Assembly (NCBI GenBank): GCA_016930635.1
Contig: JAFGGI010000024.1
Coordinates: forward strand, 1 to 47,819
DNA length: 47,819 bases
Direction of reading: 5' to 3'
From: Sedimentisphaerales bacterium
GTDB lineage: Bacteria; Planctomycetota; Phycisphaerae; Sedimentisphaerales; UBA12454
The notes under the pieces were generated by a model, which saw only the letters and a program-made list of their open reading frames with translations, was not told the DNA's origin and searched no databases. Position 1 is the stretch's first letter. Each line of letters opens with the position of its first letter. Made by a program: the position numbers and the translations under genes. This document shows, in pieces, positions 10,554-26,400 of the stretch.

Positions 10554-10581
10554 TTGACTTTTTAAATCCATTTTGTATAAT
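10554..10581 (+). promoter_or_regulatory. Strong sigma-70 promoter of the first cold-shock gene
   Basis: TTGACT (10554-10559) and a perfect TATAAT (10576-10581) with a 16-base spacer. A start near 10588 gives a leader of about 100 bases before the ATG at 10691. Long leaders are usual for cold-inducible csp genes. Confidence 0.75.
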
Positions 10582-10596
10582 ATGATTGTTTGTGGT

Positions 10597-10690
10597 GTAT
10601 ATCCCTTCATCTCTCAGGCCTATACTTCCAATAAATTAATTCGAGAGATATTATGCGAACGGTCTATAGATGGGCCGAGGAGCAGAAAAT
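10597..10690 (+). promoter_or_regulatory. Structured 5' leader of csp copy 1
   Basis: Elements in order: GTATA (10597-10601), ATCTCTC (10609-10615), TATAC (10621-10625), GAGAGAT (10643-10649), then a weak GGTC/GGCC hairpin (10661-10676) directly before the GAGGAG ribosome-binding site (10677-10682). The two complementary pairs interleave, so they form either a pseudoknot or alternative folds. The same set recurs before csp copy 2. Confidence 0.6.
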
Positions 10691-10900
10691 ATGAATACAG
10701 GGACAGTAAAGTGGTTTGATTCAGACAAAGGTTATGGTGTTATAGCTCAGGACGACGGCAGCGAAGATTTGTTCGTCTCCCGCTCGGAAATTAAAATGAT
10801 AGATTGCATATCACTCAGTGAAGACCAGAAAGTTCAGTTCGAAGTCGGCGAGAACCAAAACGGCCCTTGTGCCAATAATGTAGTACCAATAACCAGATAA
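10691..10900 (+). CDS. Cold-shock domain protein, divergent copy
   Basis: Single cold-shock (OB-fold) domain, 69 aa, binding single-stranded RNA or DNA. Start ATG 10691 is chosen because GAGGAG lies 8 bases upstream and the protein then begins MNTGTVKWF like its paralogue; a longer frame from 10670 would include the ribosome-binding site. RNP1 reads KGYGVI and RNP2 reads LFVSRS, so the usual aromatic and His positions (KGFGFI, LFVHHS in copy 2) are changed, which may alter nucleic-acid affinity. It is followed 134 bases later by a second csp gene with a similar leader. Confidence 0.9.
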   Translation: MNTGTVKWFDSDKGYGVIAQDDGSEDLFVSRSEIKMIDCISLSEDQKVQFEVGENQNGPCANNVVPITR

Positions 10901-10942
10901 CCCCGTTGGAAATTGAATTTATACAGTATAGTTGTTAAAGGC

Positions 10943-11034
10943 GTATATCCCCCATCTCTCAGGCATATACTTCCATAAATTGAAATAGAGAGATATTATT
11001 TTAAACGGCCTGACAACAGGCCAAGGAGTAAAAA
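10943..11034 (+). promoter_or_regulatory. Structured 5' leader of csp copy 2
   Basis: It repeats the copy 1 leader: GTATAT (10943-10948), ATCTCTC (10954-10960), ATATAC (10965-10970), GAGAGAT (10988-10994), then a perfect GGCCTG/CAGGCC hairpin (11007-11022) abutting AAGGAG (11023-11028). A weak TATAGT at 10927-10932 may be the -10 box. Conserved spacing and pairing between copies support a functional RNA element. Confidence 0.6.
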
Positions 11035-11238
11035 GTGAATACAGGAACAGTAAAATGGTTTGATGAAAGAAAAGGTTTTGGTTTTATATCTCCCGATGAC
11101 GGCAGCAAAGATTTGTTCGTCCATCACTCGGAAGTTATGACCACAGGCTACGCGACACTCGCAGACAACCAAAAGGTGCAGTTCGAAGTAGGCGAAGGCA
11201 AAAAAGGCCCATGTGCCAACAAAGTAACACCTTTATAA
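11035..11238 (+). CDS. Cold-shock domain protein (canonical copy)
   Basis: 67-aa CspA-family RNA chaperone. RNP1 is KGFGFI (residues 13-18) and RNP2 is LFVHH (27-31), with the usual TVKWF start and QKVQFEVGEGKKGPCANKV end. The start codon is GTG, with AAGGAG 6 bases upstream. The leader is homologous to that of the upstream csp gene, so the pair arose by duplication including the regulatory region. A rho-independent terminator follows at 11261-11291. Confidence 0.93.
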   Translation: MNTGTVKWFDERKGFGFISPDDGSKDLFVHHSEVMTTGYATLADNQKVQFEVGEGKKGPCANKVTPL

Positions 11239-11291: not shown

Positions 11292-11448
11292 ACGCGCAAA
11301 TCGCTGAAATTGTTCCTTTGACAATGCCCAGCCGTATGGTACTATCAATAAATCATAAAAGATCAATAGATCTTTAAGCCGCAGAGAAAGACTCAGCAAA
11401 CCTTCCTTTACAGCTTTTTCATTTGGTGATTTGCCGAAAGGAGCCGCA

Positions 11449-11616
11449 ATGGCAAAAACTTTAAAAACCTCGCCCGCGAACAGGAAATGCGCATTTCCGA
11501 ACTGCAAACACACCTTAAGCATCTACAACCACTATGAGTACTGTCATATACATCTCGACAATATGCCCAGGGATAAAAAGAATAGGATTATAAAGCACCC
11601 CGCAGGCGTTAAATAA
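11449..11616 (+). CDS. Mini zinc-finger-like protein, unknown
   Basis: A 55-aa basic protein. Start ATG 11449 is chosen because AAGGAG (11438-11443) sits 5 bases upstream; a longer frame would begin at TTG 11431, inside the ribosome-binding region. It contains CAFPNC, then CHIH about 14 residues later (C-x4-C…C-x-H-x-H order with nearby His), a plausible single zinc site, flanked by Lys/Arg-rich ends (PRDKKNRIIKHP). Nucleic-acid binding is a reasonable guess only. Confidence 0.6.
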   Translation: MAKTLKTSPANRKCAFPNCKHTLSIYNHYEYCHIHLDNMPRDKKNRIIKHPAGVK

Positions 11617-11766: not shown

Positions 11767-11949
11767 CCCCCAACTTTACGTTGGGGGTTTATTCGTTTGG
11801 TTAGCCCCCACCCCTGTGGTGGGGGGATATTTAGCCCCACGACGTGTCGTGGGGTTGCTTTTATATTTAGCCCTGCCAATACTTTGGCAGGGTTGGTTAG
11901 CCCCGTTGCTCGCGACGGGGGATATTTAGCCCCTCGGCCTGCCGAGGGG
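11767..11949. repeat. Array of six GC-rich palindromes in a TTAGCCCC…GGGG frame
   Basis: Six short hairpins follow one another, each of C/G-rich 8-9 bp arms with a 2-5 base loop. All but the first are preceded by GGTTAG or ATTTAG, and each ends in GGGG. The stem interior differs between units (for example CCCCACGAC/GTCGTGGGG, CCCTGCCAA/TTGGCAGGG, CCCCTCGG/CCGAGGGG). The unit at 11827-11862 has a perfect 36-bp inverted copy at 26176-26211. A translated frame across it (11797-12114) is not a gene. The remaining 11617-12147 spacer holds only repeats. Confidence 0.8.
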
Positions 11950-12020
11950 TTTGGTTATTGGTCATTTATTGATAATTGTACCTTGCTTATTGATTATTAC
12001 TTCCCCCTTGCTTTTCCCAC

Positions 12021-25689: not shown

Positions 25690-26400
25690 TTAGTCAGTTA
25701 TCGGTATTCAGTTATCGGTTATTATACAGTTATCAGTATTCGGTTATCGGTTATCAGATAGAGATTCTTCGGCGATGCCCCCTAAGGGGCAAGCTCAGAA
25801 TGACCCCACACCAATTTTGTTTTACCGTGGTGATAATGGAAGAACCGCCGCACCTGTTTTTTTTAATAAATTATGGAGATGAAGGAATGTTTAACATGTG
25901 CGGGGTAAATACCCAATTGGTGCGGGATGGAGATTGCCGCGGCCTTCGGCCTCGCAATGACAAAGAAAAGTTTGAAAGGTGGGAAGGTGAAAGGGTCATT
26001 GGTATTTAGTATATGGTATTTGGTAGGGGGCGGGAACTGTTTTTAACGTTCAACATTGAACATCTAACTTCGAACATCCAATGCGGAACCGCCTTCCGTC
26101 CTTCGTCCCTAAGGGACTACGGAGGACAGGTCGGCGGGGAATTTATTGCCCCCCGGTAAAACCAGGGGCTAACCGAAAAGCAACCCCACGACACGTCGTG
26201 GGGCTAAATATAAAACCCCGACTGTAGGGGTCGGGGCTAACCGAGATTTTTTAAACCCCCACTAAAAGTGGGGGCTAAATATTTAAACCCCCCGGCACAG
26301 GTCCGGGGGCTAAACGGGAGATTCTTCACTGCGTCCCTAAGGGGCAAGTTCAGAATGACATGGGGTGGGTAGAATAGGGTGGACAAAGGGTTAAAAAAAG
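25690..26400. repeat. Gene-free stretch of mixed palindromic repeats
   Basis: In order: AGTTATCGGTATTC repeats (25692-25761); GAGATTCTTC…TCAGAATGAC with a GCCCCCTAAGGGGC core (25761-25803); GAGATTGC…GCAATGACA with a GGCCTTCGGCC core (25931-25961); AACATTGAACATC-type repeat (26051-26080); CCGTCCTTCG…CGGAGGACAGG with a GTCCCTAAGGGAC core (26096-26130); five GC palindromes ending GGGGCTAA (26149-26313); and another GAGATTCTTC…TCAGAATGACA (26318-26360). The frame at 25800-26009 only translates repeats. Confidence 0.8.

Follow-up and report, generated by a model that had tools for sequence, protein, structure and literature searches.

The question raised by this locus is whether two neighbouring leaders of cold-shock protein (csp) genes fold into the same crossed RNA structure and, if so, what such a structure would sense. 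The genes lie in a 47,819-nucleotide contig of a Sedimentisphaerales bacterium (JAFGGI010000024.1), of which the full length is referred to below as the window. Both leaders carry, in this order, GTATA, ATCTCTC, TATAC and GAGAGAT (at 10597, 10609, 10621 and 10643 in copy 1 and at 10943, 10954, 10966 and 10988 in copy 2), and all eight elements were found where the original prediction had placed them. That prediction had the first element pairing with the third and the second with the fourth, and took the crossed stems for either a pseudoknot or a two-state thermosensor. As shown below, the pairing and the pseudoknot are borne out by covariation of three stems, by short loops compatible with both stems and by a set of held-out leaders; the thermosensor part is unproven.

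The two leaders are identical at 72 of 95 aligned bases. In each of them two stems (S1 and S2) cross to give one H-type pseudoknot, followed by a hairpin (P3) standing against the Shine-Dalgarno sequence (SD). The stems and the pseudoknot score were obtained with a finder based on stacking energies; the observed score is reached by none of 215 dinucleotide shuffles for copy 1 and by one of 215 for copy 2. The predicted first stem, GTATA/TATAC, does pair, but it makes up just the central part of S1, a stem of about 12 bp that continues below with GG/CC and above with CCU/AGG in copy 1 and CC/GG in copy 2. The 5' strand of S2 is flush with the 3' strand of S1 in copy 1 and one base apart from it in copy 2. 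The third hairpin expected at each ribosome-binding site is P3 (GGTCTA/TGGGCC and GGCCTG/CAGGCC), which in both leaders ends immediately before the SD.

We read 113 csp leaders of the window's order, which we take to be Sedimentisphaerales (33 from the first searches and 80 fetched later), and most show the same plan in quite different letters. In locus L019, S1 reads GGGGCUAUUCUU/AGGAAUGGCCCC and S2 GUCUCUC/GAGAGAC, while further S2 variants are AUCUCUG/CAGGGAU (L002), GCCUCU/AGAGGC (L021) and CCCUC/GAGGG (L090). A covariance model (R1) was built with the pairs of S1 and P3 only, such that S2 was never modelled as pairs. Tested on 100 of the 113 leaders, it gave an alignment of 95 matches (93 distinct leaders); among the other 13, four were matched weakly in the expected position (E 0.002 to 0.82) and nine were not matched. 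On the 93 distinct rows the three stems together have 87.3% of cells paired, double changes in 24 of 25 pairs, and a covariation score of 0.457 (against 0.227 when shuffled and at most 0.131 when partners are slid), though the counts for S1 and P3 lean to the model.

For S2 alone, 92.7% of cells in these leaders are paired, whereas shuffles give 84.4% and slid partners reach no more than 73%; double-change cells number 54 (14.7 in shuffles). A rough tree, drawn from the leader columns other than those of S2, carries 23 double changes in S2 (shuffled mean 6.1, maximum 12 in 100 shuffles), as well as 50 steps that enter or leave an unpaired state. The result is repeated in 35 held-out leaders that entered no model: S2 is paired in 93.1% of cells (against 86.0%) with 24 double-change cells (against 7.0), although two of the five measures were matched by 26 and 18 of 500 shuffles. 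A MAFFT alignment of 30 leaders to which no structure was fitted (A1) gives 85.8% paired cells (79.0% shuffled) and double changes in 18 pairs (11.0 shuffled), and slid partners pair in at most 56%. Both crossing stems of the H-type fold are hence individually backed by covariation, in the 93 leaders and in the further 35. G-U cells outnumber A-C cells by 212 to 46 in S1 (4.6 times) and by 37 to 16 in S2, so the fold is that of RNA of the csp sense strand. The original prediction had itself named two outcomes that would speak against it, namely a lack of covariation and a duplication so recent that it alone explains the shared pairing; neither is what the leaders show. Overall, it is nearly certain, as judged from these sequences, that the pseudoknot has been conserved by matched base changes.

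Several observations nonetheless weigh against so uniform a picture. Without a given structure, RNAalifold finds on A1 only a weak nested consensus (-1.13 kcal/mol), with three pairs of P3 and four of S2; S1 is missed because its register shifts within the MAFFT alignment. In a shuffle test of 103 leaders (L100 and L101 left out, eight non-members set apart), 14 fail to beat all 15 of their own shuffles on the pseudoknot score. P3 is absent from six of 100 leaders, the S1 and S2 of two paralogous leaders (L077 and L084) look like those of decayed members, and two leaders of one genome (L027 and L047) look different.

The anatomy could be decomposed in 100 of the 113 leaders; 13 non-members or undecomposable leaders were left out (L004, L063, L077, L079, L084, L102, L103, L107, L108 and L110-L113). 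S1 has a mean length of 11.7 bp and S2 is mostly 6-8 bp (7-8 bp in 76 leaders), with a pyrimidine-rich 5' strand in every leader. Loop L1 spans 1-6 nucleotides (1-3 in 74 leaders), L2 is zero in 83 leaders and L3 measures about 8-16 nucleotides (10-14 in 76). These lengths permit both stems at once, as in an H-type fold, but the finder itself imposed non-overlapping stems and loop limits (L1 1-7, L2 0-2), and the geometry is therefore consistent with a pseudoknot rather than independent evidence for it. L1 is 76% C+U and L3 48% A. Triple-helix H-type pseudoknots are known from preQ1-II and telomerase, and the csp leaders would resemble these in their pyrimidine-rich L1, A-rich L3 and purine S2 strand on the 3' side.

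The knot takes up about 55 nucleotides and the whole element about 95, ending at the SD. Where P3 is present (94 of 100 leaders), it ends no more than one base from the start of the SD in 77 cases (22 overlap by one base, 38 are flush and 17 are one base off). Five of the six leaders without P3 belong to csp genes of the window's own family (L002, L044, L067, L068 and L081) and keep S1 and S2. Several of this subgroup have a U-rich stretch before the SD in the place of P3. A -10-like hexamer (at least five of six matches) occurs within 50 nucleotides upstream of S1 in 59 of the 100 leaders, mostly 5-14 nucleotides away, so the transcript is predicted to start, probably, at or just before the knot.

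To which genes and organisms is the element confined? Of 59 genomes searched for Csp proteins, 52 gave matches, the window's own being one of them. In three genomes of the order (G015, G019 and G023; 98-99% complete, two of them on a single contig) the search returned no Csp at E 0.001. Model R1 matched 36 of the 59 genomes at E 0.01 (69 matches). A second model (R2), built from the 95-match alignment, found the element in 52 genomes of the class (298 searched; 116 matches) and in 7 of the phylum (392 searched), under stricter filters by which weak matches may be lost (most non-matching genomes are not listed); every matching genome is either the window's own or labelled as belonging to its family or order. 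Every one of the 69 R1 matches and of the 116 R2 class matches is immediately followed, on its own strand, by a gene with a cold-shock domain (CSD). Of these placements 68 and 81, respectively, were made by coordinates and 34 of the 116 by translation, while one match at a contig end, common to both sets, was assigned by the csp start still visible.

In the window's genome the two window copies come out on top (E about 1e-12), followed by a third csp gene (L002, E 0.011); the two weaker places (E 2.3 and 8.3) are loci without a CSD motif. Three of its four csp genes thus carry the element, and the most divergent one (L004) is without it. No match was seen in 76 of 78 scanned csp loci from a wider search (mostly gammaproteobacterial; L114 and L116 left out as duplicate contigs of G012 and G017), the two that match being Phycisphaerae (L117 and L122), nor in any of 20 scanned csp loci of sister orders. 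On the evidence of these searches, the element is shown to be restricted to csp genes and to one order, with several csp paralogues per genome carrying it.

The window was scanned against Rfam 15 and ten divergent csp loci were compared with Rfam (E up to 1); no family reached its gathering score in either case. The cspA thermoregulator (RF01766, gathering score 78 bits) stays below threshold with 38.1 and 24.5 bits in the window. Its best score among the ten loci was 75.9 bits, in L019 with the coding sequence included. This sub-threshold match was traced to the coding sequence, which makes up most of the alignment, and was discarded; scanned by itself, the leader scores 11.8 bits, over 42 of the 428 positions. 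Within the limits of Rfam, the suggestion that the leaders are a solution separate from that of E. coli cspA is thereby supported. A literature search, with most subscription papers outside its coverage, returned no published description of a csp-leader pseudoknot, and the word pseudoknot is absent from the text of PMC11648934. It appears that the csp-leader pseudoknot is an undescribed RNA control element of the structured-csp-leader kind, with a strong case for an Rfam family of its own.

The element shares features with several known systems and differs from each. The E. coli cspA thermoregulator is likewise a structured leader on a csp mRNA, of which the cold form exposes the SD (Giuliodori et al. 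2010, as reported in PMC9947658 and PMC4166951); its switch, however, consists of long folds reaching into the coding region, whereas the planctomycete element stops at the SD. The gene 32 operator of phages T4 and RB69 is a 5' pseudoknot that precedes the ribosome-binding site of a gene whose product binds single-stranded nucleic acids (PMC535899). There the knot of about 28 nucleotides is followed by unstructured UUAAA repeats, in contrast to the longer csp knot and the P3 hairpin that separates it from the SD in nearly all leaders. The 5' untranslated region of Staphylococcus aureus cspA also bears a 5' terminal structure, processed by RNase III, but this is a simple, extended hairpin (about 32 bp), for which no pseudoknot is described in the available text (PMC3386247).

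Does the leader hide and expose its SD with temperature? We folded the 94 leaders with P3 at five temperatures from 5 to 45 C, using nested-fold energies. With and without the knot, the mean unpaired probability of the SD is 0.49 and 0.41 at 5 C and 0.54 and 0.46 at 37 C. Within these ensembles neither a conserved partner masking the SD nor a consistent change in SD exposure with temperature was found, and a switch that works by SD masking finds no support in energies of this kind, which are limited to nested folds. Leaving out any pseudoknot penalty (about 7-10 kcal/mol), the knotted form differs from the unknotted ensemble by an estimated mean of -9.1 kcal/mol at 5 C, -6.2 kcal/mol at 37 C and -5.2 kcal/mol at 45 C.

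Before turning to function, three readings that do without a pseudoknot as working part have to be weighed. S1 and S2 might be mutually exclusive folds, as they do compete in the nested-fold ensembles (mean probability at 37 C 0.24 for S1 and 0.40 for S2). The stems share no bases, however, and can therefore form together, and the lengths of L1 and L2 match H-type geometry, a spacing that a switch would not need; we consider this reading very improbable. The interleaved inverted repeats near a promoter-like site could also be a DNA operator for a regulator, yet the letters of S1 are free to change as long as pairing is kept, and the G-U excess in S1 would not be expected from DNA symmetry, which leaves hardly any room for an operator. 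Much the same can be said of a transcription attenuator with P3 or S1 as terminator: P3 is G+C-rich, but it is followed by the SD instead of a U-run, and neither window leader has a terminator-like site on the + strand, so that we give this reading almost no credence.

Judged by sequence, the element is very likely to act on csp post-transcriptionally. As to how, we rank feedback by Csp first, an intrinsic cold sensor next and a passive 5' cap last. Csp are OB-fold binders of pyrimidine-rich single-stranded RNA. In the feedback scheme, the leader would act in cis, as an RNA element placed at the 5' end of csp mRNA or within a few bases of it; upon opening of S2, Csp would bind the pyrimidine strand (L1 with the 5' strand of S2), and the balance between the knotted and the Csp-bound leader would set translation or lifetime of the mRNA, with cold favouring the knotted form. 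It is placed first because the element occurs on csp genes only and on several paralogues per genome, and because the pyrimidine strand is kept. Precedents exist: through its 5' pseudoknot the T4 gene 32 mRNA is repressed by its own product, gp32 (PMC535899), E. coli CspA promotes translation of the mRNA that encodes it (PMC9947658), and the S. aureus cspA mRNA is stabilised by its 5' terminal hairpin (PMC3386247). Two points speak against it. The purine/pyrimidine polarity of S2 can equally come from shared ancestry or from a triple helix with L1, and the Csp of copy 1 (10691-10897) has altered RNA-binding motifs (KGYGVI and LFVSRS, against KGFGFI and LFVHHS in copy 2); with such unusual RNP1 and RNP2 residues it fits badly with binding of its own leader. 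RNA binding by this protein may be altered or lost, even though the copy 1 leader is fully kept. The whole explanation, a cis-acting 5' pseudoknot with P3 that gives Csp feedback, is our tentative preference; for Csp feedback as the specific mechanism we would claim somewhat less, namely that it is conceivable.

An intrinsic cold thermosensor would instead have S2 form temperature-sensitively in a preformed S1 hairpin, with the knotted form being translated, independently of E. coli cspA. The csp genes are classic cold-induced genes, and since the advantage of the knot falls with temperature, melting in the biological range is possible once the penalty is included. SD exposure differs little with and without the knot, though, a conserved masking partner is lacking, and in the class search the element was found on no gene class other than csp; a pure cold sensor is accordingly rather unlikely. 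A constitutive 5' cap would sense nothing: the knot would shield the 5' end from decay and keep the pyrimidine and purine tracts off the SD. The peak of -10-like hexamers 5-14 nucleotides before S1, which places the start of the knot near +1, and the S. aureus hairpin mentioned above are in its favour. Nevertheless, a plain hairpin would suffice for this purpose, the crossing S2 with its constrained sequence suggests more, and the start site is only predicted, and we regard a mere cap as unlikely.

The features on which this account is based are collected in Table 1.

Table 1. Positions of the leader elements and csp genes in the window.
Feature	Position	Strand	Remarks
Copy 1 promoter-like site TTGACT-16-TATAAT	10554..10581	+	11/12 matches, consensus only
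Copy 1 S1 5' strand TGGTGTATATCCCT	10593..10606	+	S1 covaries
Copy 1 loop L1 (TC)	10607..10608	+	
Copy 1 S2 5' strand ATCTCTC	10609..10615	+	Covariation, held-out set
Copy 1 S1 3' strand AGGCCTATACTTCCA	10616..10630	+	
Copy 1 loop L3 ATAAATTAATTC	10631..10642	+	
Copy 1 S2 3' strand GAGAGAT	10643..10649	+	Covariation, held-out set
Copy 1 P3 hairpin GGTCTA/TGGGCC (10661-10666/10671-10676)	10661..10676	+	P3 covaries
Copy 1 SD GAGGAG	10677..10682	+	
Copy 1 cold-shock protein gene, 69 aa, ATG	10691..10900	+	Pfam CSD, E 1.8e-21
Copy 2 possible -10 hexamer TATAGT	10927..10932	+	Consensus only
Copy 2 S1 5' strand GGCGTATATCCC	10940..10951	+	
Copy 2 loop L1 (CC)	10952..10953	+	
Copy 2 S2 5' strand ATCTCTC	10954..10960	+	Covariation
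Copy 2 S1 3' strand GGCATATACTTCC	10962..10974	+	
Copy 2 loop L3 ATAAATTGAAATA	10975..10987	+	
Copy 2 S2 3' strand GAGAGAT	10988..10994	+	Covariation
Copy 2 P3 hairpin GGCCTG/CAGGCC (11007-11012/11017-11022)	11007..11022	+	
Copy 2 SD AAGGAG	11023..11028	+	
Copy 2 cold-shock protein gene, 67 aa, GTG	11035..11238	+	Pfam CSD, E 3e-27

Behind the csp pair lies an open reading frame of 61 amino acids (11431-11616) with a C-x4-C ... YCHIHL pattern, a possible zinc-ribbon neighbour; a sequence resembling it by eye stands beside a csp gene of another genome (G010, locus L016). Clusters of short palindromes starting with TTAGCCCC are seen at 11801-11960 and 26165-26313 (10 in the window against 1.4 expected), and palindromes of a similar type, GGGGCTAA, occur near csp genes, with a clear case in L013. 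The clusters are REP-like (repetitive extragenic palindromic) elements.

In broader terms, these leaders could represent an undescribed class of regulatory RNA, independent of enterobacterial cspA, in which the 5' pseudoknot itself would sense cold or free Csp and the SD is not hidden; this is a possibility we put forward with reserve. Within it, the sensing step would be the closing of S2 inside an already folded S1 hairpin, perhaps with an L1 triple helix as lock. What is known of how csp mRNA remains translatable in the cold comes mainly from E. coli. A compact pseudoknot of this size that is found on csp genes only and throughout one order would provide an independent and easily synthesised system in which to ask whether it is cold or Csp that is sensed.
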